Source: Hymenobacter jeollabukensis
GTDB taxonomy: Bacteria > Bacteroidota > Bacteroidia > Cytophagales > Hymenobacteraceae
Assembly (NCBI RefSeq): GCF_005771675.1
Contig: NZ_VAJM01000014.1
Coordinates: 62,001-126,000 of the forward strand
Direction of reading: 5' to 3'
Length of the DNA: 64,000 nucleotides
The notes beneath the pieces are model-generated. The model worked only from the letters and a program-made list of their open reading frames with translations. It was not told the DNA's origin and searched no databases. A program made the position numbers and the translations under genes. Positions 2,259 to 63,870 of this stretch are shown in pieces (positions within the stretch are counted from its first letter, which is position 1; the number at the start of each line of letters is the position of its first letter).

Positions 2259-2336
2259 GTTGGGAGTTGTCAGTTGCGAGTTGGTGGTTGCCAGGCGCTG
2301 GTTGCTTTGAGCAGCTAACGACCGGCAACCAACTCC
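2259..2336. repeat. Two-armed word array between araB and araD
   Basis: The left arm (2259-2292) repeats variants of GTTGTCAGTTGCGAGTTG. The right arm (2324-2336) reads GGCAACCAACTCC, the complement of part of the left arm. The array fills almost the whole spacer between two genes of one operon, so it should be in the mRNA and can fold. The same words recur at 39973, 42936 and 63796. Confidence 0.7.
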
Positions 2337-2338
2337 GG

Positions 2339-4009
2339 CTAAGCCATGCTTGGCGTCTGCGCTTCCACGAACTCGCCGAAGGCCAGGTACTGCTGGTAGC
2401 GCGGCTCGTAGTCGGCCACGCGGGCGGGGTTGGGCTCGTAGGTGTCGGCGAAACCGTTGCCCATGGCCTTTTGCGCGGCGGGCACGTCGGGGTGGATGCC
2501 GGCAGCCACGGCCGCGTACATGGCCGCGCCCAACGCCGGAGCCTGATCTGACTCAGCCACGCGGATGGGGCGGTTGAGCACGTCGGCCAGGGTCTGCATC
2601 ATAAAGGCCGATTTTTTGGCCACCCCGCCCAGGCCGATAACCTGCTTGATGGGCACACCCTGCTCCTCGAAGCGCTCCACGATGCGGCGCGAGCCGTAGC
2701 AAATCGACTCCACCAGCGCCCGGAAAATGTGCGGGGCGTCGGTGCCCATCGACAGGTTCATCAGCGCGCCTTTCAGGGCCTGGTTGGCGTCGGGCGTGCG
2801 GCGGCCGTTCACCCAGTCCAGGGCCAGCACCTGCGACTCGGCGGGGTCAACGGCGGCGGCGGCTTTGTTGAGCGCCACCATCATCTTACCGGCCAGCTCC
2901 TCGCGCAGCTGTTCCTGCTGCTCGGCTGTCAGCACGCCGCTTGCGGGCAGCAGGGCGCGCAGGGGCCACTCGATGAGCTGCCGGAACCAGGCCAGCAGGT
3001 CGCCCACGGCCGACTGGCCGGCTTCCAGGCCCAGCATACCGGGCAACACCGAGCCGTCGACCTGCCCGCAGATGCCGGGCACGAGCTTCGCCCCCACTTC
3101 CTGCATGGGCGCCACCACGATGTCGCAGGTGCTGGTGCCCATTACTTTCACCATCGAATAAGCCTCGATTTCGCCCGCCACGGCGCCGGCGTGGGCGTCG
3201 AAGGAGCCGACGGCTACCACCGTGTCGGTCGTCAGGCCTAGGCGCTCAGCCCATTCGGCGGAGAGCGTGCCGGCCACTTCGTCGGCGGTGTAGGTGTCAG
3301 TGTAGAGTCTGTCGCGCAGGCCGGCCAGCTTGGGTTCCAGGTGCGTCAGGAACTCCTCCGAGGGCAGGCCGCCCCAGCTCTCGTGCCACATGGCCTTGTG
3401 GCCGGCGGCGCAGCGGCTGCGCTTGAATGTGGCCAGCTCGCCGCCGGTGAGCTGCAGCGTGAGCCAGTCGCAGTGCTCCATCCAGCTGTGCGCGGCCTGG
3501 GCCACGGCCGCGTCTTCGCGCACCACGTGGGCAATCTTTGCCCAGAACCACTCCGAGGAGTAGATGCCGCCCTCGAAGCGGGTGAAGTCCTCACCACCCC
3601 AGGCTTTGGCTTTCTGGTTGATTTCGGCGGCTTCCGGCAGGGCGGTGTGGTCTTTCCAGAGCACGAACATGGCGTTCGGATTCTCCTCGAAGCCGGGCGT
3701 CAGGGCCAGGCTCTGCCCCTGCTCGTTCACCGCGCCGGGCGTCGAGCCGGTGGTGTCCACGGCCAGGCCCACGATCTGCGCGGCGGGCACCTTGGCGGCC
3801 ACGGCGCGCACGGTGGCTTCGAGGCCTTCGAGGTGGTCGAGCGGGTGCTGGCGAAACTGGTTCTGGGCCGCGTTGCAGTAGCGCTGGTCTTTCCAGCGGG
3901 CGTAGGGGTGCACGGCCTGCGCCACTTCGGCGCCGCTGCGGGCATCCACGAGCACGGCCCGCACCGAGTCGGTGCCGTAGTCGATGCCGATGACGTATGT
4001 CTTTGACAT
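2339..4009 (-). CDS. araB: Ribulokinase
   Basis: FGGY-family kinase that phosphorylates L-ribulose with ATP. It is 556 residues long (E. coli AraB has 566). The N-terminus MSKTYVIGIDYGTDSVRAVL carries the DxGT phosphate-binding motif, and the C-terminal half has the FGGY signature region around GLGGVAKKSAFMMQTLADV. The frame stays open upstream to 4099, but those extra codons come from an inverted word array (4010-4121); the ATG at 4009 gives the canonical start. It sits between galM upstream and araD downstream, all on the minus strand, and probably shares the operator at 5443-5464. Confidence 0.97.
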   Translation of the reverse strand: MSKTYVIGIDYGTDSVRAVLVDARSGAEVAQAVHPYARWKDQRYCNAAQNQFRQHPLDHLEGLEATVRAVAAKVPAAQIVGLAVDTTGSTPGAVNEQGQSLALTPGFEENPNAMFVLWKDHTALPEAAEINQKAKAWGGEDFTRFEGGIYSSEWFWAKIAHVVREDAAVAQAAHSWMEHCDWLTLQLTGGELATFKRSRCAAGHKAMWHESWGGLPSEEFLTHLEPKLAGLRDRLYTDTYTADEVAGTLSAEWAERLGLTTDTVVAVGSFDAHAGAVAGEIEAYSMVKVMGTSTCDIVVAPMQEVGAKLVPGICGQVDGSVLPGMLGLEAGQSAVGDLLAWFRQLIEWPLRALLPASGVLTAEQQEQLREELAGKMMVALNKAAAAVDPAESQVLALDWVNGRRTPDANQALKGALMNLSMGTDAPHIFRALVESICYGSRRIVERFEEQGVPIKQVIGLGGVAKKSAFMMQTLADVLNRPIRVAESDQAPALGAAMYAAVAAGIHPDVPAAQKAMGNGFADTYEPNPARVADYEPRYQQYLAFGEFVEAQTPSMA

Positions 4010-4121
4010 GTTGGTGAACTGGTGAGGTGGTGAACTGGTGAGTTGATGTTGTCGTGGCGCGTATTGCGCAGGTGGCGCCGCCTGAACGGCACTCCCCAAT
4101 TCACCACCTCACCATTTCACC
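4010..4121. repeat. Two-armed word array between galM and araB
   Basis: The left arm (4013-4042) is made of variants of GGTGAACTGGTGAG. The right arm (4099-4121) is its complement with one mismatch over 23 bases and runs into the galM stop codon. About 55 bases lie between the arms. The word differs from the araB-araD array, but the architecture is the same. Confidence 0.75.
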
Positions 4122-5335
4122 TATTTGCGCACGCCGAAGCGGTACACGGTGGTGGATTGCAGAGTCTGACCGGGCTTCAGGATGGTGCTCGGGAATTTGG
4201 GCTGGTTGGGCGAGTCGGGGAAGTGCTGGGTTTCCAGGCAAAAGCCCGCGTGCTTGCCGTACACCACGTTGCCCTTGCCCGTGAGCGAGCCGTCGAGGAA
4301 GTTGCCGGTGTAGAACTGGATGCCGGGTTCGGTGGTCGTCACTTCCAGGGTGCGGCCGGTGTTCGGCTCGTACACCGTGGCGGCCGGGTGCATCCCCTCG
4401 GTCTGGTTCAGCACCCAGTTGTGGTCGTAGCCGCCGGGCACCTGCTGTATCCGCTCCCCGATGCCATGGGGCGTGGTGAAGTCGAAGGGCGTACCCTTCA
4501 CCGGGCGCAGCTCGCCGGTCGGGATCAGCCCCGCGTCGACCACCGTGTAGCGGTCGGCGGGCAGGGTCACCTGGTGGCTGAGCACGTCCTGCGACTGGCC
4601 CAGGGCCAGGTTGAAGTAGGCGTGGTTGGTCAGGTTGACGGGCGTGGCCTTGTCGGTGGTGGCCGAATACTCGATTTTCAGCGCGTCGTCATTGGTCAGC
4701 GTGTACACCACCGTTACCTGCAGGTTGCCGGGGTAGCCCTCCTCGCCGTCTTTGCTCAGGTAGCGCAGCTTGAGCGTCTGGCCCTCGGCCGAGGTGCCGG
4801 GCTCGGCCTGCCAGAGCACCTTGTCGAAGCCCTTCAGGCCGCCGTGCAGGTGGTTGGCGCCGTTGTTTTTGGCCAGGGTGTAGGCTTTGCCGTCGAGCGT
4901 GAACCGGCCGCCGCGGATGCGGTTGCCGTAGCGCCCGATCAGCGCGCCGAAGTAGGGTCCGGCCTTGCGGTAAGCCGGGCTCTGGTAGCCCGCCACGCTG
5001 TCGAAGCCGAGCACGATGTCGCCGAACTTGCCGGCCTTGTCGGGCACGAACAGGCGGGTGATGGTGCCGCCGTAGCTGCTGATGCTCACTTTCAGGCCGT
5101 GGGCGTTGCTGAGCGTGTACAGCTCGGCCTGTTGGCCGTCGGCGGTTTTGCCAAAGCCCACGCCCTTGGGCGCTTCGGCGTCGGCAGCGGCCTGAGTAGA
5201 ATCAGTGGCGGCGGGCTGGGCGGCGTCGGCGGTAGCCTGCTCGCTCGGGGCCGATTGGTTGCAGCTGGCCAGCAGCAGCAGGCTGCTGGCACCGAAAACC
5301 GTCAGCGCACCGGCGGCTTGGAATAGACGAGGCAT
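4121..5335 (-). CDS. galM: Aldose 1-epimerase (mutarotase), lipoprotein
   Basis: Interconverts alpha and beta anomers of free aldoses. Here it probably supplies the arabinose or galactose anomer used downstream. The 404-residue product starts at the ATG at 5335 with a lipoprotein signal peptide ending in LLLLASC|N, then a low-complexity linker of about 35 residues, then a full mutarotase domain. Family motifs are seen at GALIGRYGNRI, NGANHLHGG, VNLTNHAYFNL and GGYDHNWVL (active-site His pair), with a conserved Glu near CLETQHFPDSPN. The lipobox places it in the periplasm or on a membrane leaflet, unlike cytoplasmic GalM. It is the first gene of the ara operon, directly behind the palindromic operator. 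Confidence 0.93.
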   Translation of the reverse strand: MPRLFQAAGALTVFGASSLLLLASCNQSAPSEQATADAAQPAATDSTQAAADAEAPKGVGFGKTADGQQAELYTLSNAHGLKVSISSYGGTITRLFVPDKAGKFGDIVLGFDSVAGYQSPAYRKAGPYFGALIGRYGNRIRGGRFTLDGKAYTLAKNNGANHLHGGLKGFDKVLWQAEPGTSAEGQTLKLRYLSKDGEEGYPGNLQVTVVYTLTNDDALKIEYSATTDKATPVNLTNHAYFNLALGQSQDVLSHQVTLPADRYTVVDAGLIPTGELRPVKGTPFDFTTPHGIGERIQQVPGGYDHNWVLNQTEGMHPAATVYEPNTGRTLEVTTTEPGIQFYTGNFLDGSLTGKGNVVYGKHAGFCLETQHFPDSPNQPKFPSTILKPGQTLQSTTVYRFGVRK

Positions 5336-5442
5336 AGGGGCGGGAAAAGTGGCGTGAGCTGGAAAACGCGCGGCGGCGGGTCGACCATTCGGCCCGACTG
5401 CCGCCACGGCTAAGCGGGGCGAAAAGTAAAAAAACCTGAGCG

Positions 5443-5464
5443 TTTACACAATCGTTTGTGTAAA
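5443..5464. promoter_or_regulatory. Palindromic operator upstream of galM-araBDA
   Basis: Perfect inverted repeat TTTACACAA-N4-TTGTGTAAA, 108 bp upstream of the galM ATG. On the minus strand TAATTTTA (7 of 8 matches to TAnnTTTG) overlaps its edge, so a bound repressor would cover the promoter. Control by an arabinose-responsive repressor is inferred from position; no regulator gene is in the window. Confidence 0.6.
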
Positions 5465-5476
5465 ATTATCCACGTA

Positions 5477-5521
5477 AAACCCCTGGCCTGACCGCGCTTA
5501 GCACGGCCAGATCAGGGGTTT
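5477..5521 (-). terminator. Terminator hairpin after the 5561-6133 gene
   Basis: Nested inverted repeat AAACCCCTG...CAGGGGTTT with an inner TGGCC/GGCCA stem. On the minus strand it lies 40 bp after the stop at 5561 and ends in a short T run. Confidence 0.65.
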
Positions 5522-5560
5522 GCGCAGTGAGGAAAGCACGCGAGTAGCCCGCCGAATGCA

Positions 5561-6133
5561 CTATCGATTGTAGAGCACGTCGAAGCGGCCGCTGCTGATC
5601 TGCACGGCCGGCTCGCCCGCCCGCAGGCTGGGCAGTTGCCCCTCGAACGTGCCGGCCACCAAGTCGCGCACCGTGTCGATGGCCGTGATGGTGATGCTGG
5701 CCGTGCCGGGCTGGCTCTGGTACTGCCGGCCGCGGCGGCTGTCGGTGAAGTAGAGCTTGGTGCCCGATTCGCCGCCGGTGGCACCGGGGCCGCCGGCCGT
5801 GGCGCGGTACACGCCCGGCCCGGCCAGTGAGTCGATCTGCAGCACGAAGGACTCGTTGCGGCTGCCGTCGGTGCGGGCGGCGGTGAGCAGCAGGAAGCGG
5901 CGGCGCCCGCTCAGGTGCGAGGAGGCCTCCACGCGGTTGTCGGCGCAGCCGTAGATGCCGCAGCGCTGCCCGGCGGGCACCCAGGCCGCCCCGTCGACGC
6001 GGAAGCCCAGGGTTTCGGCCCCGGTGGCGGTGGCCGCCGGCAGGTCGGACTGGGGCCCGACGCTGGTTTTATCGCAGCCGGCCAGGGCGGTCAGCGCCGC
6101 CAACAGGCCGGTTATCATGGGCAGGTGGTTCAT
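5561..6133 (-). CDS. DUF6252-like lipoprotein
   Basis: 190-residue exported protein starting at the ATG at 6133. The signal peptide ends in a lipobox (LTALAGC|DKTS), so it should be lipid-anchored in the cell envelope. The body begins FRVDGAAWVPAG, a pattern I associate with the DUF6252 family of small Bacteroidota lipoproteins, and is predicted mostly beta: strand-rich stretches separated by Gly/Ser turns, such as GPGVYRATAGG and KLYFTDSRRG. No catalytic motif is seen. It is divergent from the PAS histidine kinase at 6263 and has its own terminator. The lipoprotein at 7475-8236 has a similar beta C-terminal half and may be related. The function is unknown. Confidence 0.75.
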   Translation of the reverse strand: MNHLPMITGLLAALTALAGCDKTSVGPQSDLPAATATGAETLGFRVDGAAWVPAGQRCGIYGCADNRVEASSHLSGRRRFLLLTAARTDGSRNESFVLQIDSLAGPGVYRATAGGPGATGGESGTKLYFTDSRRGRQYQSQPGTASITITAIDTVRDLVAGTFEGQLPSLRAGEPAVQISSGRFDVLYNR

Positions 6134-6262
6134 AGCAGGAATTAGGTAAGGGTGGAACGACAGGTAACGTACGTGGCCCTTGCCAACGCCGTGCCACCCC
6201 GCGGCGGCAACGAAACGGCGGCCAGCACGGTACATACGGGTTAAGTCCTTTGCCTCAGCCCC

Positions 6263-11760: not shown

Positions 11761-11893
11761 TGAATTATGAATTATGAATTATGAATTATGAATTATGAAT
11801 TATGAATTATGAATTATGAATTATGAATTGGTACTGGCTCCTACTTTGGTGGGTTGCGCCAATTCAGCATTCAGCATTCAGAATTCATAATTA
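11761..11893. repeat. Heptamer tandem array with inverted arm
   Basis: Nearly ten perfect tandem copies of TGAATTA (11761-11829) begin at the base after a stop codon. After a loop of about 31 bases comes an inverted arm (11861-11893) built of AATTCAGCAT/AATTCATAA words, complementary to an imperfect version of the same array. A promoter box (TACCTTTG, 11904-11911) follows directly. Confidence 0.9.
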
Positions 11894-20557: not shown

Positions 20558-20631
20558 CGACTGCGCGGCCAAGTAAACCGGCCCGCCGCTGACGCGTCAG
20601 CGGCGGGCCGGTTTACTTGGCCGCGCAGTCG
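20558..20631. terminator. 74-bp perfect spacerless palindrome
   Basis: Bases 20558-20594 are the exact reverse complement of 20595-20631, with TGACGCGTCA at the centre. An A/T-flanked GC core resembles the other terminators here (AAACCGGCCCGC...GCGGGCCGGTTT), but the stem is about three times longer than usual and has no loop. It lies 36 bp after the PH-domain gene. Confidence 0.85.
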
Positions 20632-22920: not shown

Positions 22921-22923
22921 TTT

Positions 22924-23062
22924 CGTGCTTAGTGCTTGGTGCTTAGTGCCTGGTGGTGGATGCCACCCGTAGCTTCAGCGTGGGGAAAAGATTCTATCGA
23001 ATGATATGCTTCGTACAAAGACCCGATGCGACTAAGCACCAGGCACTAAGCACCAAGCACTA
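22924..23062. repeat. Two-armed word array between hslV and the DHS gene
   Basis: The left arm (22924-22956) repeats GTGCTTAGTGCTTGG-type words. The right arm (23032-23062) carries the complement, CTAAGCACCAGGCACTAAGC and so on. About 75 bases of unrelated sequence form the loop. The array fills the gap between two same-strand genes. Confidence 0.85.
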
Positions 23063-28764: not shown

Positions 28765-28779
28765 CAACGGTAGTACTGG

Positions 28780-28985
28780 CAGTCATTGCGAGGACGAAGG
28801 ACGAAGCAATCCTTCCTCCAGTAGCACCGCCGATGCAATACCCACCAACCGAAAATCCGTCTGAACGAAGCCGTGCCCGAAGCCAGCGCCACTGGGTTTC
28901 GGGCGCGGCTGGTTTTGGGTCGATGCCAGTTGGGCCGTGGTGCCTCGGGAGGAAGGATTGCTTCGTCGTTCCTCCTCGCAATGAC
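28780..28985. repeat. MITE-like inverted repeat, family 2
   Basis: Arms of about 38 bases (28781-28819 and 28948-28985) are inverted complements with three mismatches and share no sequence with family 1. They enclose about 130 bases with smaller internal inverted words. The element lies between menF and menD and ends about 55 bases before the menD promoter. Confidence 0.8.
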
Positions 28986-29040
28986 GGCGGACTGAGCTGT
29001 CCGTAGCGGATGAATCCGCGTATTCATGGCCGGCGTGGGC

Positions 29041-29048
29041 TACCTTTG
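29041..29048 (+). promoter_or_regulatory. -7 box of menD
   Basis: TACCTTTG, a perfect match to TAnnTTTG, 21 bases upstream of the likely TTG start of menD. It lies inside the open frame that begins at the ATG at 29010, so that ATG would not be transcribed from this promoter. Confidence 0.6.
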
Positions 29049-29069
29049 CCGCGCTTTACCTGCTCTGCT

Positions 29070-30974
29070 TTGTCGACGCTCCAGCCCATCCACAACATCC
29101 CCGAAATCTGCGCCCAGCACGGCATCACCGACGTGGTGTTGTCGCCGGGCTCCCGGTCGGCGCCGCTCACCATTGCCTTTGCCCGCCACCCCGAGCTGCG
29201 CGTGCGCGTAGTCCCCGACGAGCGGGCCGCCGCCTTTATCGGGCTGGGACTGGCGCAGGCGCAGCGGCGGCCAGTGGCGCTGGTGTGCACCTCCGGCACG
29301 GCCGGGCTGAACTACGCGCCGGCCGTGGCGGAGGCGTTTTTTCAGCAAATTCCGCTGGTCGTGTTCACCGCCGACCGCCCGCCGGAGTGGATTGACCAGC
29401 TCGACGGCCAGACTATCCGCCAGCCCAACCTCTACGGCCGCCACGCTAAGGCCGCCTTCGAGCTGCCCGTTGACTTCACGCACGCCGATGCCCGCTGGCA
29501 GGCTACGCGACTGGTCAACGAGGCCATCAACCTCAGCCAGGAATTTCCGGCCGGGCCGGTGCAGGTGAACGTGCCCCTGCGGGAGCCTTTTTACCCCAAG
29601 GCCGGCGAAGAAATCCAGTACGAGCCGGTCAAAATCAGCCACGAGGTAAGCGGGGCCGCCCAACTGCCCGCCGCCGAGCTGGACGTGCTGCGCCGGCAGC
29701 TGCGCCAGACGCCCCGGGTGCTGGTGGTAGCCGGCCAGTACCCCCACGACGAGGCGCTGCTACTGGCCCTGCGCCGCTTCGGTGCCGCCTACCAGGCCCC
29801 GGTGGTTGGCGACCTGATTGCCAACGTGCACCAGCCCGTCGGCCCCGATTTCGACGCGGCGCGCACTGCCCCGCTGGGCCGGCAGGACGTGTTCATGGTG
29901 GTGCCTGAACCGGGTCTGCGCGAGGCGTTGCGGCCCGAGCTGCTGATTACCTACGGTCAGTCCTTGATTTCCAAGGCGCTGAAAAACTACCTGCGCGAGT
30001 ACCCGGCTACGCAGCACTGGCACATCCAGCCCGCCGGTCCGGTGGCCGACACCTTCCGCACGCTCACGCGCATCATCCGGATGGAGCCGGCCGCGTTTTT
30101 TGAGGCGATTCTGAATGGGAATAGCAGTCTGCCCGCTTCTGATTCCAGTTCGATTCCCGTCGCGGATGCAGCAGGTTCGACCCCGGTTCTGGGTACGGAA
30201 GCCGAACAACGAACAACGAATAACGAAAAACGAACCTCACGCCTGACCTGGCAAGGCCCCGGCAGCGCCCGCGACGAAGCCGCCGCGCCCAAGGATGCCT
30301 TCACCACGCCCTGGCAGCGGGCCAACGGCTGGGCCACGGACTTCGTGCGCGGATTTCTGACCCAGCCCGAGCAGCCGTTCAACGAGTTTACAGCCATCTA
30401 CCGGGCCCTGCAGCTCGTGCCCAGCGACACGGCCCTGCACCTAGCGAACAGCATGGCCGTGCGCTACGCTAACATCCTGGGGTTGCCGGCCGGCTGCACC
30501 GCCGAAGTCTTCGCCAACCGCGGCACCAGCGGCATCGACGGCTGCAACTCCACGGCCGTGGGCGCGGCGCTGGCCCAGCCCGCGCGTCCCATCGTGCTGC
30601 TCACCGGCGACGTGGCCTTTTTCTACGACCGCAACGCCTTCTGGCACAATTACCCCACGCCCAACCTGCGCGTCATCCTGATCAACAACCACGCGGGCGG
30701 CATCTTCCGGCTGATTGACGGGCCGCGGCAGCAGCCCGAGCTGGAGGAGTTCTTCGAGACGCGGCAGTCGCTGACGGCTGAGAATACGGCCAAGGATTTC
30801 GGCCTGCGCTACTTCACCGCCGCTACCTTCGCGGAGCTGGATAAGGTGTTACCCGCTTTCTTTGCACCCTCGTCCAAAGGCAACGCGGCCTTGCTGGAAA
30901 TCACCACCGACTCGGCCACCAACGCCGCCTTTTTCGAGCAGTACCGCGCCGCCGTGCGCACGTCTTTTTCTTAA
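29070..30974 (+). CDS. menD: SEPHCHC synthase, with a large internal insertion
   Basis: Thiamine-diphosphate enzyme joining isochorismate and 2-oxoglutarate, the first committed menaquinone step. The best start is TTG at 29070, giving MSTLQPIHNIPEICAQHG, the normal MenD N-terminus, right after a promoter box. The ATG at 29010 would add 20 residues encoded partly upstream of that promoter. The 634 residues exceed the usual 555-575. The excess is a Ser/Thr/Asn-rich stretch at about 348-410, containing an array-type repeat (30205-30236). ThDP motifs are intact on both sides: LSPGSRSAPL and CTSGTAGLNYAPAVAEA at the N-terminus, and GDVAFFYDRNAFWHN with INNHAGGIF at the C-terminus. The enzyme is probably active. 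Confidence 0.93.
   Translation: MSTLQPIHNIPEICAQHGITDVVLSPGSRSAPLTIAFARHPELRVRVVPDERAAAFIGLGLAQAQRRPVALVCTSGTAGLNYAPAVAEAFFQQIPLVVFTADRPPEWIDQLDGQTIRQPNLYGRHAKAAFELPVDFTHADARWQATRLVNEAINLSQEFPAGPVQVNVPLREPFYPKAGEEIQYEPVKISHEVSGAAQLPAAELDVLRRQLRQTPRVLVVAGQYPHDEALLLALRRFGAAYQAPVVGDLIANVHQPVGPDFDAARTAPLGRQDVFMVVPEPGLREALRPELLITYGQSLISKALKNYLREYPATQHWHIQPAGPVADTFRTLTRIIRMEPAAFFEAILNGNSSLPASDSSSIPVADAAGSTPVLGTEAEQRTTNNEKRTSRLTWQGPGSARDEAAAPKDAFTTPWQRANGWATDFVRGFLTQPEQPFNEFTAIYRALQLVPSDTALHLANSMAVRYANILGLPAGCTAEVFANRGTSGIDGCNSTAVGAALAQPARPIVLLTGDVAFFYDRNAFWHNYPTPNLRVILINNHAGGIFRLIDGPRQQPELEEFFETRQSLTAENTAKDFGLRYFTAATFAELDKVLPAFFAPSSKGNAALLEITTDSATNAAFFEQYRAAVRTSFS
30112..30290. repeat. Repeat-derived insertion inside menD
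   Basis: About 180 bases of in-frame sequence encoding low-complexity residues (GNSSLPASDSSS, then an array-derived EQRTTNNEKRTS). Bases 30205-30236 repeat CGAACAACGAACAACGAATA-type words, a single arm of the array architecture otherwise found between genes. The boundaries are approximate, judged from where recognisable MenD sequence stops and resumes. Confidence 0.6.
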
Positions 30975-36559: not shown

Positions 36560-37681
36560 ATGCCCGCTACCACTGTCCCCGACACGCTGCTGCTCAACGG
36601 CCACCGCTACCGCTACGCCGACATCCAGGAATACCCCGGCCACGCTGGCCACGAGCTCAACGGCTACGAAGCCCGGGTGCTCGACTTCTGCCGGCAGTGG
36701 CTCAACGGTGTGCAGGAGTTCGGGCTGACCACTTCGGGCTCGACGGGCCCCGCCCAGCCCATCACGCTGCGTCGCAGTCAGCTGGTGGCTAGCGCCCAGC
36801 GCACCATGAATCACCTGGGTTTGGGTGTGGGCCAGCGCATGCTGGTGTGCCTGAACTGCGAGTACATCGGCGGGATGATGATGCTGGTGCGCGCCTTCGA
36901 GTACGGGCTGCACCTCACCATTACCGAGCCGGTAAGTGACCCGTTTGCCCTGCTCCCGCCCGACGCGGCGTTTGACTTCGGCTCCTTCGTGCCCTTGCAG
37001 CTGCGGGCGGTACTGGCGGCCGGCCACGCCCCGCGGCTGGAACAGATGCGGGCCATTCTCATCGGTGGGGCGGCCGTGGACGCGGGCCTGCTGCAGCTGG
37101 CCGCGCCGCTGCAAGTGCCGCTTTATCACACCTACGGCATGACGGAAACCTGCTCCCACATTGCCCTGCGCCGCCTCAACGGCCCCGACGCCTCGGCCTA
37201 TTACCGCGTGCTGCCCGGCCTGCACGTGGAGCAGGACGCGCGCGGCTGCCTGGCCATTCGCGGCGACGTGACCAACCAGGAGCTGGTGCAAACCAACGAC
37301 CTGGTGCGCTTCGCGGAGCACGACCACCACCTGTTCGAGTGGCTGGGCCGGGCCGATTTCGTCATCAACTCGGGCGGGGTGAAAGTACCGGCCGAAAAGG
37401 TGGAGCAAGTGCTGGAAGTGACGCTGGCCGAGTTGGGCCACCTGGGCCGCCGGGCCCTGGTCACCGGCCGCCCCGACGAGCGACTGGGCCAGCAGGTGAC
37501 GGCCGTGGTGGAGGGCGAGCCGCTGCCCGAAGCGGCCTGGGAGGCGGTGCTGGCGCGGCTGCGCGAGCGGCTGGGCCGCTACGAAGTGCCGCGGGCCGTG
37601 TACTACGCGCCGCAGTTTGCCCAGACGGCCAACGGCAAGCTGGACCGCCGTGCCACGCTGGCCGGCTTGGATGTGACTTAG
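36560..37681 (+). CDS. menE: O-succinylbenzoate-CoA ligase-like AMP-forming enzyme
   Basis: 373 residues, a compact adenylate-forming enzyme without most of the usual N-terminal subdomain, as is typical of MenE in this phylum. The P-loop-like motif TTSGSTGPAQPIT is at 57-69, YGMTETCSHIALR at about 193, the hinge/A8 region GRADFVINSGGVKVPAEKVE at about 270, and the catalytic lysine in QTANGKLDRR near the end. It activates o-succinylbenzoate with ATP and CoA, giving the substrate of MenB. It lies 4.6 kb from menB, separated by unrelated genes. A TAAGTTTC box is about 22 bases upstream. Its stop codon lies in a short inverted word array. Confidence 0.9.
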   Translation: MPATTVPDTLLLNGHRYRYADIQEYPGHAGHELNGYEARVLDFCRQWLNGVQEFGLTTSGSTGPAQPITLRRSQLVASAQRTMNHLGLGVGQRMLVCLNCEYIGGMMMLVRAFEYGLHLTITEPVSDPFALLPPDAAFDFGSFVPLQLRAVLAAGHAPRLEQMRAILIGGAAVDAGLLQLAAPLQVPLYHTYGMTETCSHIALRRLNGPDASAYYRVLPGLHVEQDARGCLAIRGDVTNQELVQTNDLVRFAEHDHHLFEWLGRADFVINSGGVKVPAEKVEQVLEVTLAELGHLGRRALVTGRPDERLGQQVTAVVEGEPLPEAAWEAVLARLRERLGRYEVPRAVYYAPQFAQTANGKLDRRATLAGLDVT

Positions 37682-37720
37682 TGAAGTATCGTTCCAGGCT
37701 CCGCTAAGTCACTAAATCAC
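37673..37720. repeat. Short two-armed word array at the menE stop
   Basis: GTGACTTAGTGA (37673-37684), which includes the menE stop codon, is followed after about 20 bases by its complement in CTAAGTCACTAAATCAC (37704-37720). This is the smallest member of the array class. Confidence 0.55.
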
Positions 37721-39972: not shown

Positions 39973-40072
39973 TTGGTAGTTGTCAGTTGCGAGTTGTCAG
40001 TTCGTTCTGACGTCTGTCCTGACAACTCGCAACTAACAACTGACAACCAACAACTCGCAACTGACAGCAACC
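39973..40072. repeat. Two-armed word array after the M49 peptidase gene
   Basis: Begins at the base after the stop codon. The left arm (39973-40004) has GTTGTCAGTTGCGAGTTGTC words; the right arm (40020-40072) has TGACAACTCGCAACTAACAA words, about 1.5 times as long as the left. The loop is only about 15 bases, so the fold should be strong. It uses the same words as 2259, 42936 and 63796. Confidence 0.9.
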
Positions 40073-42935: not shown

Positions 42936-42965
42936 GGTCAGTTGTCAGTTGTCAGTTGTCAGTTG
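42936..42965. repeat. Single-armed word array
   Basis: About four copies of CAGTTGT, starting two bases after a stop codon. It uses the same words as the arrays at 2259, 39973 and 63796 but has no inverted partner. Confidence 0.75.
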
Positions 42966-43536: not shown

Positions 43537-44559
43537 ATGAACGATTTGCGTCTGCGCCTCGTGGGCATGCCCGCGCTGAGCTTGCTCATTGCCGTGCTGA
43601 ACGCCAAGCACTGGTATTCCTGGGGGCAAGCGGCCATGAGCTGGGGCATCTCGCTGCTGTTTACGGCCGTGCTCTGGCAGGGCACGCGCACCATCTGGGC
43701 GCTGCTGGTCGAGCGGTTTCCGCGGGTGGAGCAAACCGCGCGGCGGCTGTGGCTGCTGCTGCTCACCTGCCTGCTCTACACCAGTGCGGCCACCGTGGCG
43801 CTGGTGGCGCTCCTGCACCTGGCCATGCCCCAGTACTTCTCGCTCAGTCCCGCGGCGTTGCTCGGCCAGATCGGCTTCAACCTGATTCCGACCACCATAG
43901 TGATGCTGGGCTACGAGAGCCGGCACTTCTTTCTGCAGTGGGCCGAAAACGTGCGCCGCGCCGAGCAGCTGCTGGGCGCCAGCCAGCGCGCCCAGCTCGA
44001 AGCCCTGCAGCAGCAGCTCGACCCGCACTTCCTCTTCAACACCCTCAACACCCTGGCCGCCCTGGTGGAGCCCGACAACGCCCCGGCCCAGCAGTTCGTG
44101 GAGCAGCTAGCCGATGTGTACCGCTACGTGCTGCTCAGCCGCGAGCGGCGCACCGTACCGCTGCGCGAGGAGCTGGCCTTCGTGGAAGCCTACGTGGCCC
44201 TGCAGAAAGCCCGCCTGCGCGACAACCTGCAGGTGCACCTGACCGTGCCACCGGCCCTGCTCGACGCGCACGTGGCCCCGCTGAGCGTGCAGCTGCTGAT
44301 CGAAAATGCGCTGAAGCACAACGAAGCCTCGCGCCAGCACCCGCTGCACGTGCGCGTGGCGGCCGCGGGCGAGTGGCTGGCGGTGAGCAACCCGCGCCGC
44401 GCCCGCAGCACCAGCCTCGCCCCGCCCGGCACCGGCACGGGCCTGCGCAACATCCGCGAGCGGTACACCCTGCTGCTCCCCGCCCGCCCCGTCCATATCG
44501 ACGCGGCCCCCGACACCTTCACGGTGCGGCTCCCGCTACTGGGGAATTCTGAAGTATGA
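43537..44559 (+). CDS. LytS-type sensor histidine kinase
   Basis: 340 residues. Four N-terminal membrane helices (about 10-140) form the sensor, followed by a coiled segment and the His_kinase domain (QQLDPHFLFNTLNTLAALVE, phospho-acceptor H164) and an ATPase half with LLIENALKHN (N-box) and GTGTGLRNIRERY (G-box). This is the YehU/LytS class that partners LytTR response regulators. The cognate regulator is the next gene. The last codons (NSEV) and the stop TGA (44557-44559) come from a two-armed word array that fills the gap to the regulator gene. The signal is unknown. Confidence 0.93.
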   Translation: MNDLRLRLVGMPALSLLIAVLNAKHWYSWGQAAMSWGISLLFTAVLWQGTRTIWALLVERFPRVEQTARRLWLLLLTCLLYTSAATVALVALLHLAMPQYFSLSPAALLGQIGFNLIPTTIVMLGYESRHFFLQWAENVRRAEQLLGASQRAQLEALQQQLDPHFLFNTLNTLAALVEPDNAPAQQFVEQLADVYRYVLLSRERRTVPLREELAFVEAYVALQKARLRDNLQVHLTVPPALLDAHVAPLSVQLLIENALKHNEASRQHPLHVRVAAAGEWLAVSNPRRARSTSLAPPGTGTGLRNIRERYTLLLPARPVHIDAAPDTFTVRLPLLGNSEV

Positions 44560-44713
44560 ATGCTGAATTATGAATTCTCATGTCTTGCCCCGCCTGCTTT
44601 TGCCCTTCAGATGGCAGTTCATCGGCCCTGGCTCAGCGGTGCAGATTCCCGGCATCACCACCTCGGCCCGCCTATCTTCCAATTCATAATTCAGCATTCA
44701 TCATTCAGAATTC
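44544..44713. repeat. Two-armed word array between LytS and LytTR genes
   Basis: The left arm (44544-44581) has GAATTCTGAAGTATGAATGC-type words and includes the kinase stop codon. The right arm (44681-44713) is its complement with few mismatches and ends seven bases before the regulator ATG. The loop is about 100 bases. The words match the heptamer family at 11761. Confidence 0.9.
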
Positions 44714-50128: not shown

Positions 50129-50246
50129 TCTAATGTGCTTATGTGGGGTGAATGTGCTGATGTGCTAATATGGGGTGAATGTGCTGATGGTGGTTCTGGG
50201 ATTAGCACATCAGCACATTCTTCACATTAGCACATTAGCACATTAG
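50129..50246. repeat. Two-armed word array between LytS and LytTR genes (second system)
   Basis: The left arm (50129-50190) has CTAATGTGCTTATGTGGGGT-type words; the right arm (50201-50246) has ATTAGCACATCAGCACATTC-type words. The loop is about 10 bases. The right arm supplies the kinase stop codon (50235-50237) and its last residues; the left arm ends three bases from the regulator start codon. Confidence 0.9.
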
Positions 50247-52300: not shown

Positions 52301-52365
52301 GGGCAGTTCCGGTAGAAGTACCATTATCAGAACCGGGGCAGCAGGAGGCTGAAGCGAGGAAAGTC

Positions 52366-52501
52366 TAGAGGCAGTATAGAGGCAGTATAGAAGCAGTGTA
52401 GAGGGAGGGCAGACGCACTATCTATGCGGAGTACAATCGGCAGGCCGGCTGTTCGGGACGGTTTAGCCCGCAGAGGGCGCGGAAGCTTGCGCAGAGGGCG
52501 C
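52366..52501. repeat. Short direct repeats in the gap upstream of 52144
   Basis: About 3.5 copies of an 11-mer TAGAGGCAGTA (52366-52405), then two copies of GCAGAGGGCGC (52470-52480 and 52491-52501) whose starts are exactly 21 bases apart, two helical turns. The 388-base gap 52145-52532 has no supported gene. Confidence 0.65.
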
Positions 52502-54802: not shown

Positions 54803-54878
54803 ACTTGCTGCTACCGAAGCGTCGGATGAGGCGGATGAAGCGCCGTGGGGGCGGATGAAGCGCCGTGGGGGCGGATGA
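54803..54878 (-). promoter_or_regulatory. Shared upstream motif, copy 2, with GCGGATGA direct repeats
   Basis: The 36-base block (54803-54838) matches that at 52238. GCGGATGA occurs at 54831, 54851 and 54871, with a period of exactly 20 bases as part of a duplicated 20-mer. It lies between the divergent TonB receptor (57 bases away) and YD-repeat genes, so it could act on either. Confidence 0.55.
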
Positions 54879-54924
54879 ACTGCGGCGCGGGGCTGGTAAC
54901 TTGGAGGCAGATACTGCTCGTGCT

Positions 54925-56634: not shown

Positions 56635-56644
56635 TAGTCGCCGC

Positions 56645-58876: not shown

Positions 58877-59676
58877 ATGCTTTGTCGCACTATTCCTGGC
58901 TTTCTGCTCAGCGGGCTGCTGGCCTGCCAGTCGTCGACCTCTGAAATACCGGCGGCAGCGGCGCCGGCTATGGCCACTGATTCAGTGACTACTCCAGCGG
59001 CGGCCCGGACTCAACCGGCCCCCAGCACGCGCCCCCCGGCCCGCCCGGGCGCTTATCCATACACCATTCTGCCCATCGACGAAACGCCGCGTGAACCAGC
59101 GCTACGGGCCTTTATCGAGCAGGTGCTGCGGGCCTGCGCCCGACAGGACCAGCGCGCATTGCTGGCGTTGGTCGACGCCAACGTAGCCGTGTCGATGGGC
59201 GGGGGCATCTACGGCAAGGCGGGCTTTGTTTCTGACTTTCTGAACAACCCCACCAAAGGCAGCGGCTACAAGCGGCTGCAGCAGATTCTCCGGCTGGCGG
59301 CACCATCAGGCGCGACTCGGCCGGCCGCTTGACGGCCACGTATCCGTACCTGCAGGATGCGGGCCGGTACAGCCAGCCGGTGCGGCAGCTGGATTTTGAA
59401 CCGTTTGTGACCTTCGTGGGCACCACGCCTAGTGTAGTGGTACATGCGGCTCCCAGTAGCCGCAGCCCGGTGGTTCGGCGGCTGGCCTATCCGCTACTCA
59501 TCACCCCCTACGACTCGGTCAGCCGGGCAGATTTCTGGCTCCCGGTGACAGCTGCCGACAGCAGCTTCCAGGGCTACGCCGACGCCCGGCAGCTCTACTG
59601 CCTGGCCGATGTCACACTGACCATCGAGCAGAAAAACGGCCGCTTGCGCATCACCAGCGTCATTCCCTACGACTAG
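58877..59676 (+). pseudogene. Lipoprotein with SH3-like domain, frameshifted
   Basis: Two overlapping frames (58877-59332 and 59329-59676) join into one sensible protein if a base is restored near 59295-59300. The first frame starts with a lipoprotein signal (LSGLLACQSS) and runs to KRLQQILRL; the second frame continues as GGTIRRDSAGRLTATYPYLQ, then a bacterial SH3-like domain (VVVHAAPSSRSPVVRRL and FWLPVTAADSSFQGYADARQLY). In the annotated frame the protein instead ends early after RLAAPSGATRPAA. Missing one G in a GGG run (CTGGGCGG read as CTGGCGG) would explain it. Either a genuine decay or a sequencing error. A TAGCTTTA box (58865-58872) ends four bases before the ATG. Confidence 0.7.
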
Positions 59677-60221
59677 CGCGCCGGCACCGGGTAGCGCCCG
59701 AACAGCTCCGTCACGGCCTCGTCGACCCGCCGGGCCGATTTGGCGGCGTCCTTGCTGAGCGGGCTGGCCGTTACGCCCTGCCACACCAGGTCGTTGCGCC
59801 GGGCATCCACCACGTCGACGGTGACGGTGCCCACCTGGTAGGTGCCCACGGGCACTTCGCCGGCCTGCCAGTGGTAGTTGCGCTGGCCAATGTAGTACGG
59901 GGCGCCGTCGGTGCGGAAATCGGTCTGGCGCGTCTGCACCTTTTCCTCGTTCACCACCCCGATGTTGACCCAGAGCTCCGGCCGCTCGGCGCGCTGGTAG
60001 CCGCGGCGCTCCATCTCGCGGGCCACGGCCTGCTTGACTTCCTCCACGCCCACCCCGGCCGTGCGAAACGCGGCTTCGTTGCGCGCCTCGCCGGGCAGAA
60101 AGTTGTAGGTACGGTAGGCCGTGAAGTCGATGCCCGGCGCCTGCTCCGTCGATTTGATTTCGGTGGTGGAGCAGGCCGTCAGCAGGGCGGCGGTGAGTAG
60201 CACTAGCAAAGACGTCTTCAT
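59673..60221 (-). CDS. DUF4136 lipoprotein
   Basis: 182 residues with a lipobox (LTAALLTAC|STTE), so lipid-anchored. The mature protein matches DUF4136 layout: DFTAYRTYNFLPG at the front, then VEEVKQAVAREMERRGYQRAERPELWVNIGVV, and the terminal DAAKSARRVDEAVTELFGRYP. Predicted alpha/beta fold, typically in the outer membrane or periplasm. No known catalytic role. It ends four bases inside the frameshifted lipoprotein gene on the other strand (shared CTAG at 59673-59676). Confidence 0.88.
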   Translation of the reverse strand: MKTSLLVLLTAALLTACSTTEIKSTEQAPGIDFTAYRTYNFLPGEARNEAAFRTAGVGVEEVKQAVAREMERRGYQRAERPELWVNIGVVNEEKVQTRQTDFRTDGAPYYIGQRNYHWQAGEVPVGTYQVGTVTVDVVDARRNDLVWQGVTASPLSKDAAKSARRVDEAVTELFGRYPVPAR

Positions 60222-60328
60222 GGCAGTGGCAGGTAAAATGGCTCCGGGCAGACACTTGGCGGCGGCCCGGGGCTATATGTTTACGGGCCGGGGCCATTAC
60301 CGGCCTCCTTTCCCCCCCACTTCCGCGC

Positions 60329-60601
60329 ATGAGCTGGCATTTCCTCGGCAGCTGCCTCGACGGCGAATCGTTCCTCATCAGCGGCCTCGACGTGTGGCAG
60401 CACCCCTGGCGCAGCCAGCCTGAATCGGCCACCGTCACCGACCCGATTTACGGCGTCAGCAAGGTATTTGGGGTGTACGCCATCGGGCCGGCCGAGGCAC
60501 CGGTGCGGTTTGCCGCCGGCGAGTTTTCAAACTGCGTCTGGGGATTTTACCGGCCGACGGCTGAGCAACCAGCTGACCAGCACGAAAATAAGCCGATATG
60601 A
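60329..60601 (+). CDS. Small protein, unknown function
   Basis: 90 residues. Aromatic-rich: MSWHFLGSCLDGESFLISGLDVWQH, then YGVSKVFGVYAIGPAEAPVRFAAGEFSNCVWGFYRP. The strand pattern suggests a small beta barrel or OB-like fold. No signal peptide. I believe related short proteins exist in this group, but I cannot verify it here. The start at ATG 60329 has no clear promoter box. It is divergent from the DUF4136 gene and lies upstream of the WG-repeat gene. Confidence 0.6.
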   Translation: MSWHFLGSCLDGESFLISGLDVWQHPWRSQPESATVTDPIYGVSKVFGVYAIGPAEAPVRFAAGEFSNCVWGFYRPTAEQPADQHENKPI

Positions 60602-60730
60602 ATATTGTATGAAGAATGTTGTGCGGGCTATATTTGCAGGTTGCTGCGGCGGCTTCCATGGCTCCGCGGCGGCACCTGCCCTCTTTACCTACTGCCGGCG
60701 CTGCGCGGTGCCGGTTTCCCACCTACCTGC

Positions 60731-62041
60731 ATGAGGTACGTTTTACTGTTGCTGCTGCTGGGCGTGAGTCTCAGCGGCTGGGCCCAGGGCCATACCAATA
60801 CCTGGGGCTGCCAGAATTTCTACAAGACCAAAGCCTACGAGGACGCCACCGCCCGGCCCGAGCCTTGCTGCTGGCCCTGCCCGCCCTGCAAGGCCAAAGA
60901 AGACGCCGAGCTGGCCAAGAAAAAGGCCGAAGATGAGCGCATTCAGGCCGAAATCCTGGCCCGCATCAACAAGAAGAAGGCTGATGAGCAGGCCAAGCGC
61001 GACGCGGCGGCCAAGGACCTGGCCAACCGCCGCTCGGCCGCCCTCAGCCAGCTCACCGCCACCGAGGCCAACGCCCGCGAGTTTGACCGCCTGAACCAGG
61101 CCAACCAAGAGCGCCGCGCCGCCGTGCGCCGCCGGTACCAGCAGCAGGAAGACCAGGCCAACAAGGCTTACGCCGACTACCTGCGCCAGCTGCAGGACGC
61201 GCAGGGCGCCACCGCCTCGGTGGCCGCGCCCGAGGACTTCTGGAACGAGACCGTGCCGATGAGCAGCTTCGAGCCGGTGGAAGACCCCAAAACCCGCCTC
61301 TGGGGCTACCAGAACAAGCAGGGCAAGCCGGTGCTGGAAGCCCGGTACCAGCAGGCCCTGCCCTTCCACCAGGGCGTGGGCCTGGTGCTCTACCGCGACC
61401 CGAAAGGCACTTACACCCGCCAGCTCATCAACACCCGCGGCGAGGTGGTGCGCAGCTTCGACAAAAGCTACTTCGAGACGGTGGGCGGCGGCACGCTCAC
61501 CGACTTTGCCCCGTCGTCGGACCACGGCAAGGCCTTTTCCGGCGGGCTGCTGGTGGTGGAGTTCAGCAAGAAGCCCTACGACCGGAACACCCGCGTGGGC
61601 TGCATCGACACCAAGGGCAACGTGGCCATTGCGCCGGCTTTCTATTACATCAAGCCCTTCCGCAACGGCACGGCCGAGGCCGCCCGCTTCGAGGACGAGG
61701 AGCGGTACAGCTTCAAGGACGAGTACCCCGGCACCTACGAGGCCAACTTCACCTACCTGCAGGTGGGCCTGATCGACCGCACGGGCAAGTGGGTGGCGGA
61801 GCCCCAGAAAAAGATGGTCTACAACTACGGGCTCTGGGGCGAGAACATGTACCTGACGGTGGAATCGGCCAACGCGCCGCGGCTGTCGGAGGAAGAGAAA
61901 CGGGCGCAGAAGGCCCGCGCCGACCTGGAAAAGAAGAAGGCCCGCGCCGTGTCGCTGGCCAAGCTCGAAGCCGACGTGCAGCAGCGCGTCGACGCGGCCA
62001 AGGCCCGCGGCTACCTCACCGAAGGCGCCCAGCGCAACTAA
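60731..62041 (+). CDS. Secreted coiled-coil protein with WG repeats
   Basis: 436 residues from the ATG at 60731 (signal peptide MRYVLLLLLLGVSLSGWAQ). A CCWPCPPCK cluster follows at about 46-54, then a charged coiled coil (about 55-165; AKKKAEDERIQAEILARINKKKADEQ). Three WG-type repeats come next: LWGYQNKQGKPVLEARYQQALPF, VGCIDTKGNVAIAPAFYYIKPF and VGLIDRTGKWVAEP. It ends in a second short coiled coil. WG repeats are beta-meander scaffolds of unknown binding. It lies 5 bp before the TPR-barrel gene, so the two are almost certainly cotranscribed and may work together in the envelope. Confidence 0.85.
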   Translation: MRYVLLLLLLGVSLSGWAQGHTNTWGCQNFYKTKAYEDATARPEPCCWPCPPCKAKEDAELAKKKAEDERIQAEILARINKKKADEQAKRDAAAKDLANRRSAALSQLTATEANAREFDRLNQANQERRAAVRRRYQQQEDQANKAYADYLRQLQDAQGATASVAAPEDFWNETVPMSSFEPVEDPKTRLWGYQNKQGKPVLEARYQQALPFHQGVGLVLYRDPKGTYTRQLINTRGEVVRSFDKSYFETVGGGTLTDFAPSSDHGKAFSGGLLVVEFSKKPYDRNTRVGCIDTKGNVAIAPAFYYIKPFRNGTAEAARFEDEERYSFKDEYPGTYEANFTYLQVGLIDRTGKWVAEPQKKMVYNYGLWGENMYLTVESANAPRLSEEEKRAQKARADLEKKKARAVSLAKLEADVQQRVDAAKARGYLTEGAQRN

Positions 62042-62046
62042 CCTCG

Positions 62047-63795
62047 ATGGCACACCGCACCCCGCAAACCCTGCTGCTGACCGCCGCCCTCGGGCTGCTG
62101 AGCCTGGCCCCGGCGGCCGCCCAATCGGCCCGCAGCCACTACCAGCAGGCCGAGCTGGCCTACGAGGCTGGCAAGTACACCGAAGCCCTGTACTACCTGG
62201 GCGAAACCGAGCGCGCCCTGGGCGGCACCAACGCCCGCATCCAGTCGCTGCGCACCCACACCTACTACGCCCAGGGCGACAACGTGCACGCCCTGGTGGA
62301 GCTGACGCGCTACTTCCGCGCGGCCGGCGCCGCCGCCCAGGGCAGCGAGGCCTACCGCGACATGCAGGCCCTGCGCGAGGAGCTGACCAGCGGCAACAAG
62401 GCGTATTTCGAGCAGCAGAAGCAAACGGCCACCCAGGGCCAGGCCCAGGAGCTGAAAACCCTCGACGCCGAGCTGGCCCGGGAACAGGAGGAGCTGACCT
62501 ACAAGGTGGTCAAGGAATCGGGCTCGAAGCAGGCCCTGCAGGATTTTCTGCGCCAGTACCCCAATTCCAGCCACGCCGGCGAGGCCACGGCCAGCATCGG
62601 GGCGGTGGAGCGGCAGGTGCAGTTCGAAACCCTGGTGGAGCAGGGCGAAGCCCACCACGCCGCCGGCCGCTGGCAGTCGGCCCTGCAGAGCTACGAAGCC
62701 GCCCTCAAGCTGCACGGCGACAGTGAGGTGCGCGGCAACGCGGCCGAAGTGCGCCGGCTCTACGCCAGCCAGCTCACGCGGCAGGGCGACGAGCACGCCG
62801 CCGCCGCCCGCTGGTCCGAGGCCGTGCGCGCCTACGAGCGGGCCGACGCCGTGCTCAGCAGCCCGGAGCTCAGCGCCGCCCTGCGCACCGCCCGCGACGA
62901 GGCCGCCTTCGCCGCCGCCGACCGCAGCCGCAGCGACGAGCAGTACGCCGCTTACCTAGCCGATTTTTCCAACGGCCGGCACGTGCCCGACGCCGTGGCC
63001 GCCCGCCTGAACCTGCAGCTGGCCCGCGCCGAACAGGCCCAGAAGCAAGGCCAGACCGAAGCGGTAGAAACCGCCTTAGCGGATGTGGCCAAGCTGGGCC
63101 AGAGCAGCGTGGTGTGGCCCGCCTACCGCGGCCGCTACTACGCGCTGCTGCGCCAGGAAGCCACCCGCCTGACTTCGGGCAAGAAGGCCGAGCGGGTCAA
63201 GCAGGTCGACCGCGCCATCGGCTATTACCAGCAGCTGGACCAGGCTCAGCCCAACCACCCCTACGCCGGCAAGCTGCGCCACCTGCAGGCCAAGCGCAAA
63301 GCCTGGTCGCACGAGGACTTCGGCTACTTCGCCTACCGCCGCGACCTGCGCAACGAAGTTGGCTTCGACCTGGGCTACAACACCAACCTGAGCTGGGGCG
63401 GCTTCTTCTCCCTGCGCGGCACGGCGCAGGCGCTGGCGGCCTCCATCCCCACGAACGGCTTTCCGCGCCGGGGCCGGCAGTATTCCCAAGGCTTTTTCAA
63501 CTTCAACTTCACCAAGAAGGTCACCTACCCGTTGTGGGTGTACGCCGGCGGCGGCTACGCGCATTTCGTGCGCATTCAGGACGTACCGGGCTACCCTGCC
63601 AACGGCATCCTGCCCAACGACAATCCGCAGAAGGGCGGGGGCGTCAACACCGAGTTCGGGGCCATCGTGAAAATCCGCTGGGCCGCGCTGTCGGTGGGCG
63701 TGAGTGCCCCGCAGTTTTCAGCCGAAAAGCGGCAGATCCTGGGCCTGAATGGCAACCCGACGATTGTCAACGCGGCCATCGGCATCTATTATTGA
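62047..63795 (+). CDS. TPR protein with C-terminal beta-barrel-like domain
   Basis: 582 residues with a signal peptide (MAHRTPQTLLLTAALGLLSLAPAAAQ). Residues about 30-430 are TPR-like helices, with HYQQAELAYEAGKYTEALYYLGETERAL and LVEQGEAHHAAGRWQSALQSYEAALKL as clear units. The last 140 residues switch to beta (GFDLGYNTNLSWGGFFSLRG, SQGFFNFNFTKKVTYPLWVYAGGGYAHF, GAIVKIRWAALSVGVSAPQF), as in an outer membrane barrel or its last strands, ending IGIYY with a terminal aromatic typical of barrels. The combination of a helical periplasmic part and a short barrel is unusual. Operon partner of the WG-repeat gene. Confidence 0.85.
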   Translation: MAHRTPQTLLLTAALGLLSLAPAAAQSARSHYQQAELAYEAGKYTEALYYLGETERALGGTNARIQSLRTHTYYAQGDNVHALVELTRYFRAAGAAAQGSEAYRDMQALREELTSGNKAYFEQQKQTATQGQAQELKTLDAELAREQEELTYKVVKESGSKQALQDFLRQYPNSSHAGEATASIGAVERQVQFETLVEQGEAHHAAGRWQSALQSYEAALKLHGDSEVRGNAAEVRRLYASQLTRQGDEHAAAARWSEAVRAYERADAVLSSPELSAALRTARDEAAFAAADRSRSDEQYAAYLADFSNGRHVPDAVAARLNLQLARAEQAQKQGQTEAVETALADVAKLGQSSVVWPAYRGRYYALLRQEATRLTSGKKAERVKQVDRAIGYYQQLDQAQPNHPYAGKLRHLQAKRKAWSHEDFGYFAYRRDLRNEVGFDLGYNTNLSWGGFFSLRGTAQALAASIPTNGFPRRGRQYSQGFFNFNFTKKVTYPLWVYAGGGYAHFVRIQDVPGYPANGILPNDNPQKGGGVNTEFGAIVKIRWAALSVGVSAPQFSAEKRQILGLNGNPTIVNAAIGIYY

Positions 63796-63870
63796 GTTGT
63801 CCGTTGCGGGTTGTCAGTCGTCAGGGAGTAAGGCTTTCAGAACGAACTGACAACTCGCAACCGACAGCTC
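63796..63870. repeat. Two-armed word array after the TPR-barrel gene
   Basis: GTTGTCCGTTGCGGGTTGTC-type words (63796-63822) and their complement (63844-63870), starting at the base after the stop codon of the TPR-barrel gene and ending two bases before the EamA gene stop on the other strand. Same words as 2259 and 39973. Confidence 0.85.

Follow-up and report, generated by a model that had tools for sequence, protein, structure and literature searches.

Two-armed word arrays between genes of Hymenobacter: polarity, conserved slots, and changing words

Several gene junctions of Hymenobacter jeollabukensis hold imperfect tandem arrays of short words that are followed, after a loop, by the inverted complement of the array. 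The question raised by these two-armed arrays is how the architecture stays constant when the words change. They were noticed in a stretch of 64,000 nucleotides (contig NZ_VAJM01000014.1, positions 62,001 to 126,000; hereafter the window) of a 6.18 Mb genome in 27 contigs; the M49 peptidases of the window and of H. edaphi share 95% identity. The arrays have a consistent polarity, their sites (slots) are conserved between species, and arms and loop are replaced together. The reading tentatively favoured here is that they are palindromic cassettes, similar to repetitive extragenic palindromic doublets forming hairpins (REPINs), that disperse at the DNA level, one cassette taking the place of another at favoured operon spacers.

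The host sample comprised 864 kb including the window, with genes predicted by our own script, and orthologous spacers were compared with stretches of four congeners: H. edaphi, H. sp. 15J16-1T3B, and two designated G008 and G010. Spacers shorter than 30 bp or longer than 1500 bp were excluded, and the mapping of orthologs excluded those longer than 1000 bp or near the ends of stretches.

Abundance, polarity, and position

At a strict cut-off, arrays of period 7 number 22 in intergenic DNA and 3 in genes of the host sample, and arrays of period 8 number 24 and 2; five dinucleotide shuffles of the 139 kb of intergenic DNA contained none of either period. Period 11 gives three arrays, period 9 gives five intergenic and five genic, periods 6 and 12 are mainly genic, and periods 5, 10, and 13 give zero. 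The class proposed in the original prediction is therefore real and extends genome-wide, since shuffled DNA yields nothing comparable; the proposed word range of 7 to 11 bases is too wide, because strict arrays concentrate at periods 7 and 8. Inverted repeats of any kind with a score of at least 16 number 179 in the 621 host spacers, compared with zero in one shuffle. Word-armed hairpins number 38 by a strict test and 49 by a lax test, three of the latter being GTCAT-type palindromes. The lax test finds 26 in 471 spacers of H. edaphi, 5 in 325 of H. sp. 15J16-1T3B, 1 in 169 of G008, and 14 in 353 of G010; two GC-rich rows of period 10, from H. sp. 15J16-1T3B and G010, were retained though doubtful. 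Many of the words, which fall into 24 clusters, belong to a lexicon that recurs between slots and species. Four of the 95 arms resemble GTCAT palindromes and were omitted from the cluster count; elsewhere they are kept in the 95 and may be among the 78 hairpins between same-strand genes.

The class was predicted to escape sequence searches on the ground that arms resemble only each other. An exact two-armed GTTGTCA pattern was too strict: of 395 genomes of the phylum it matched one, and it missed the host itself. Many words recur across slots and species. Sequence homology searches miss the class and an architecture scan detects it, here at 17 loci, all around one gene family: the 80 named M49-gene loci, which range from Hymenobacter to other phyla, contain 26 two-armed arrays, some of them in Adhaeribacter, Rufibacter, and one Ignavibacteriales metagenome-assembled genome, with zero in shuffles. 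The other 63 named loci have no two-armed array.

Arms are about 20-37 nt long, and loops are mostly 15-115 nt (median 47 in strict hairpins). The 5' arm is poor in C (A 27, C 6.5, G 37, and T 30%) and the 3' arm is complementary. G exceeds C in the 5' arm of 37 of the 38 strict hairpins, 88 of the 95 lax hairpins of the five genomes, 22 of the 24 word clusters (p=4e-5), and 25 of the 26 two-armed arrays at the named M49 loci. In spacers with two called arrays (n=21), a G-rich array precedes a C-rich one in 20 and the opposite order occurs in 0. The polarity reads alike on either strand, as it must for an inverted repeat, and it is not explained by background spacers, where C (0.325) exceeds G (0.286) past stop codons. 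Single word arms fold no better than shuffles (-0.061 vs -0.064 kcal/nt; RNA energies, 91 hairpins). Within the loops of host word hairpins of several word families, the 6-mer GTTCTG is enriched next to the arms (18 segments vs 1.2 expected), and the related TCGTTC is found in loops of H. edaphi (5 vs 0.3 expected); no 6-mer reached the threshold in loops of H. sp. 15J16-1T3B or G010.

Same-strand gene pairs flank 78 of the 94 word-hairpin spacers, and tandem junctions are favoured in the strict set (32/38 vs 403/621 spacers, p=0.009). As predicted, arrays begin near stop codons: the distance from the stop to the 5' arm is 0-15 nt in 50 of the 78 tandem hairpins, and in 53 the 3' arm ends 0-20 nt upstream of the next start. 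Arrays directly after stop codons could be a form of transcription terminator, and when the spacer 3' of the M49 gene was compared by eye across 21 Hymenobacter loci, some had ordinary terminators instead of an array. The context, however, is the opposite of that of terminators, word hairpins having a tandem-to-convergent ratio of 78:9 and terminator-like hairpins one of 43:60 (p=2e-12). Intrinsic terminators combine a GC-rich stem with a T-run at convergent junctions or operon ends, while the arms here are C-poor, and the array at 39978-40066 has a terminator of its own downstream. This makes the terminator explanation highly improbable.

The same geometry suits a second explanation, that sequence-agnostic RNA hairpins are selected in operon spacers for bringing stop and start together, for translational coupling, or for stability of the upstream mRNA. 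In the coupling form, the stem would conceal the region of the next start until a terminating ribosome opens it. The placement of both arms and the tandem bias are consistent with such hairpins, and a similar role has been suggested for repeats of Nostoc (PMC2670836). Start codons are also rare in the 3' arm (1.3 per 100 nt vs 11.7 in the 5' arm). Since the complement of C-poor words has few start codons, the orientation may be harmless before a start, which would be a possible reason for the polarity; by our arithmetic, however, the contrast between arms is about what base composition alone predicts, so it is no proof and does not favour RNA hairpins.

Conserved slots and replaced words

Host slots with words have an array in H. 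edaphi in 26 of 36 cases, compared with 7 of 300 other slots. The corresponding counts are 11/29 vs 2/199 in H. sp. 15J16-1T3B and 17/30 vs 10/181 in G010 (81% flank identity), and length-matched counts agree for all three; in G008 they are 3/18 vs 2/93 (p=0.03; length-matched p=0.053). This test leaves out host spacers with one array only. Where both species have words, the words are the same and different at 13 and 9 slots in H. edaphi, 2 and 3 in H. sp. 15J16-1T3B, 0 and 2 in G008, and 6 and 5 in G010, one of the last five being a GTCAT palindrome. The description of constant architecture with changing sequence is thus borne out: orthologous spacers whose flanking genes are about 7-19% different are often two-armed with different words. 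Slots that persist while words change would also be expected of selected RNA hairpins.

Two spacers illustrate the replacement. One (C1a 263307) has the words AGGAGCT, GTTGTCA-like, GTTGTCA-like, and AGCTGTT in four species. The atpA-atpG spacer has GTTGTCA in the host, H. sp. 15J16-1T3B, and G010, and a ATTGTTAAATGG word in H. edaphi and G008; the 90-bp cassette of the latter two (L191:19474-19563, C41 of H. edaphi; C11 of G008) is 100% identical, with the adjacent 100-bp coding flanks 95% and 92% identical. Across 37 different-word slot comparisons, mean identity is 0.90 in the flanks and 0.29 in the arms, and none of the 29 scorable loops is clearly homologous. At same-word slots, arms are better preserved than loops (0.81 vs 0.66, by different measures), and 12 of 28 loops are clearly homologous. 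Arms and loop are therefore replaced together.

Replacement of loops bears on a third explanation, that the arrays are by-products of replication in which slippage expands words and fold-back or template switching copies an arm, bounded by genes and with neither function nor mobility. Template-switch copying between arms is known as quasi-palindrome correction. Most arms do end at genes, with an intrusion of at least 3 nt into the upstream gene in 12 of the 78 5' arms and into the downstream gene in 1 of the 78 3' arms. Arms within a slot are also more similar to each other than to their orthologs, with 0.77 vs 0.63 between host and H. edaphi (13/22 slots) and 0.82 vs 0.57 between host and G010 (8/11 slots). 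At inherited slots (a cut-off of 0.72, which was our choice), double changes that restore pairing number 9 with 2.7 expected, giving weak support to the in-place templating of one arm from the other that was originally suggested. A new word, however, comes with a new loop (0/29 clearly homologous), which copying of arms cannot yield. Identical words at different slots and in different species (the 24 clusters, and csR1.1 of Nostoc, PMC2408588) argue against such by-products as well, and the polarity is left unexplained. We regard this explanation as unlikely. Gradual compensatory evolution was also considered, since, of 37 double changes at 22 H. edaphi slots (arm identity at least 60%), 26 restore pairing; it was set aside because 20 of the 26 come from five different-word slots and the excess at inherited slots is small.

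Hairpins inherited between species have a pairing of 0.89 between their own arms and an identity of 0.88 between orthologous arms (33 slot comparisons), and their decay is near neutral. Inside these hairpins the two arms thus evolve almost independently, which the original prediction had named among what would refute it; the slot is nevertheless kept.

RNA hairpins or dispersing cassettes

A selected transcript hairpin should have more G.U than A.C mismatches on the sense strand, and this excess is not seen. The 78 tandem hairpins have 73 G.U and 70 A.C mismatches, and single changes between species at inherited slots give 27 and 22. As controls, seven tRNA genes of the same stretches have 7 and 0, while terminator hairpins, with 5 and 8, are uninformative. 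The sense strand has the lower folding energy in 37 and the antisense strand in 41 of the 78, so the two are equally stable. A crude rule flagged terminator- or promoter-like motifs in 8 of the 95 loops, with the promoter motif presumed to be TANNTTTG; one spacer (C1a 95561) has both kinds between its arms, kept in four species, with the arms decayed in H. sp. 15J16-1T3B. Such motifs would place the two arms on different transcripts. The window has no match to Rfam at the gathering score. Together with the near-neutral decay, these counts speak against RNA hairpins, which appear rather unlikely, and protection of mRNA 3' ends or processing between cistrons, as originally suggested, is not supported. 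Translational coupling was the explanation first favoured, for its geometry, and was given up on the sense-strand mismatch counts. The evidence favours an origin at the DNA level and leaves models of coupling and of stability weaker, attractive as their geometry is.

Dispersal of cassettes, the reading tentatively preferred, would account for the arrays as follows. A cassette would consist of a C-poor word-array arm, a loop of 15-115 nt, and the inverted arm, located between a stop codon and the next gene, with arms plus loop as the unit that is dispersed, exchanged, and replaced. With a common lexicon as the source of word pairs, a spacer may switch its word yet keep its architecture. The arms of a resident cassette would lengthen through slippage and undergo nearly neutral decay, and an operon spacer that already has a palindrome would be the preferred site of the next one, presumably through palindrome-directed replacement. 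Mobility as the cause, and an enzyme behind the cassettes, are both presumed in this account.

In the GGTGA family, related loops are found at different slots. Among 71 hairpins with loops of at least 20 nt, 20 of 946 within-genome loop pairs from different slots score at least 16, compared with 0 when shuffled; the top 14 related pairs listed all belong to the GGTGA family, and the best three share a terminator. The pattern GGTGARNT is abundant in two of eight genomes of the genus, the host included (137 and 141 matches), low in three (17, 18, and 4, with a backward control of 15 where 18 was found), and absent in three. Abundance in few genomes is as expected from bursts of copies, as in REPINs.

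A Y1 transposase was considered as the engine and rejected. None of the 13 Y1_Tnp matches, in six of eight genus genomes, lies within about 1.5 kb of a word hairpin. A hint in the other direction is that the genomes with the fewest word hairpins, G008 and H. sp. 15J16-1T3B, have none (the second apparently), and the other three genomes have at least one match each, which among five genomes proves nothing. The matches at L250, L252, L254, and L258 adjoin palindromes of the GTAGCGCG... type, a REP-like pairing in Hymenobacter.

Several results weigh against dispersing cassettes. The Y1_Tnp loci (about 3.2 kb each) contain only one weak single array. Loops of the GTTGTCA and TGAATTN families are unrelated between slots, so that in these families the arms alone recur. 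No target-site duplication was evident on inspection by eye. Turnover below 0.65 identity between host and H. edaphi affects 84 of 304 non-word spacers and 5 of 22 word-word spacers; the idea that word slots turn over faster was therefore rejected, replacement as such is ordinary, and the distinctive feature is the return of the architecture. The identical cassette is a single case, that of atpA-atpG; its identity also extends past the spacer, covering 18 nt of the upstream gene and 11 nt of the downstream one, and could thus stem from ordinary homologous recombination. A wider form of the same idea, in which architecture and polarity, not sequence, define a cross-phylum class and a DNA-level process targeting resident palindromes of operon spacers exchanges the word as a unit, is quite unlikely.

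Arrays of the window and related repeats

The arrays of the window are listed in Table 1. Each site was compared with 400 dinucleotide shuffles (floor p<=0.0025), and p values are per site and uncorrected for 11 tests. The inverted-repeat score lies at the floor in eight of the nine predicted two-armed arrays, 2259-2336 being the weak exception, and the tandem score has p<=0.0075 in eight, all except 63796-63870. Both predicted single arms (42936-42965 and 30205-30236) are strongly tandem, and the second is not intergenic as had been thought.

Table 1. Word arrays of the window, with their counterparts in congeners
Array	Position	Strand	Structure and context	Congeners
GTTGTCA-type two-armed array, weak/decayed	2259-2336		between two minus-strand genes; inverted repeat p=0.03, tandem p=0.005	same initial word in H. 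sp. 15J16-1T3B
GGTGARNT octamer two-armed array	4013-4121		arms 31 nt, loop 47 nt	
TGAATTA x10 arm after stop codon	11761-11892		inverted arm 11859-11892	AGGAGCT word pair in H. edaphi
GTGCTTA two-armed array	22922-23062		hairpin 22930-23062, loop 81 nt	array absent in H. edaphi, H. sp. 15J16-1T3B, and G010
CGAACAA single arm	30203-30235	+	inside TPP (thiamine pyrophosphate)-enzyme open reading frame 29010-30974; inverted-repeat scan covers spacers only	also in H. edaphi; not in three other relatives
GTGACTTA short two-armed array	37673-37720		overlaps gene end; inverted repeat p<=0.0025	
GTTGTCA/GTTGCGA two-armed array	39978-40066		3' of M49 peptidase stop, then ordinary terminator	
(GTCAGTT)4 single arm	42937-42965	+	after stop codon; no inverted repeat with score >=16 in spacer	
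TGAATTN two-armed array	44545-44712		histidine kinase / LytTR regulator junction; kinase stop codon within words	GGTGA-type array in H. edaphi; arms almost identical in G010
ATGTGCTR two-armed array	50129-50246		histidine kinase / LytTR regulator junction	GAGTTT word in G010
GTTGTCA-type two-armed array	63794-63870		tandem part alone p=0.11, not significant; 'other' by lax classifier	

Other repeats of the window include a loop-less perfect palindrome of 74 bp just past a gene end (20558-20631), perhaps an unusual terminator or else an artefact of assembly; an array of the 11-mer AGTATAGAGGC (x3.9; 52362-52404), in a gap of about 390 nt that has no genes; and, in the spacer of two divergent genes, a 20-mer repeated exactly in tandem (x2.5; 54830-54879). 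Inverted pairs of the GTCAT type, with inner bases that vary but match, are found at 28779-28988 and many times in L101-L140, and number 25 by a motif rule in the 621 spacers. They resemble the CGTC-tagged palindromic repeats, which appear to lack a dedicated transposase as described in PMC3733652; the CGTC-tagged repeats have a fixed palindromic core and no tandem words, in contrast to word hairpins.

Heptamer arrays able to form hairpins between genes, such as hupS-hupL, are described from cyanobacteria as short tandemly repeated repetitive (STRR) sequences (PMC2670836). In Nostoc PCC 7120, ttgtcagttgtcagttgtca, with the GTTGTCA word, is counted 44 times, and the word alone is listed as having no hairpin (Table 3 of PMC2408588). 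The Hymenobacter arrays are likewise tandem 7-mers, multi-copy, and intergenic. They belong to another phylum, however, and add octamers, a rule of polarity, slot-by-slot replacement that has been measured, and a lack of an RNA signature. STRR hairpins lie between co-transcribed genes; here, same-strand genes flank 78 of the 94 spacers with word hairpins. A title from 1995 reportedly refers to variable but structured spacers, which suggests a similar picture. The TAACTGA direct repeats are also intergenic heptamers, reported from Beggiatoaceae, Cyanobacteria, and Bacteroidetes (MacGregor 2015; PMC4679880); as presented there, they have one word, are almost all single-armed (one inverted case), and in the main genome of that study mostly precede start codons.

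REPINs have two inverted arms and a loop and are dispersed extragenically (PMC3116915), and word hairpins share the two arms, a comparable loop size, and extragenic dispersal. The arms of word hairpins are word arrays instead of palindromic REPs, many families are present per genome, and no neighbouring Y1 (REP-associated tyrosine) transposase accompanies them. Dispersed copies with a related loop, a trait of REPIN spacers, are found in GGTGA and not in GTTGTCA or TGAATTN. Word cassettes resemble REPINs to some degree in how they work, but they are not REPINs.

Among the matches listed, mainly open-access, no paper describes such arrays in Hymenobacter, and none describes the polarity or the replacement of units; the function of heptamer repeats was still called unknown in a 2009 paper. 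While heptamer hairpins were already known, this study adds their polarity, their placement between stop and start, the conservation of the slot and not the word, the lack of an RNA pairing signature, and the lack of linkage to Y1. Polarity, slot conservation, and unit replacement are measurable rules that separate ideas of RNA function from ideas of DNA mobility for heptamer repeats.

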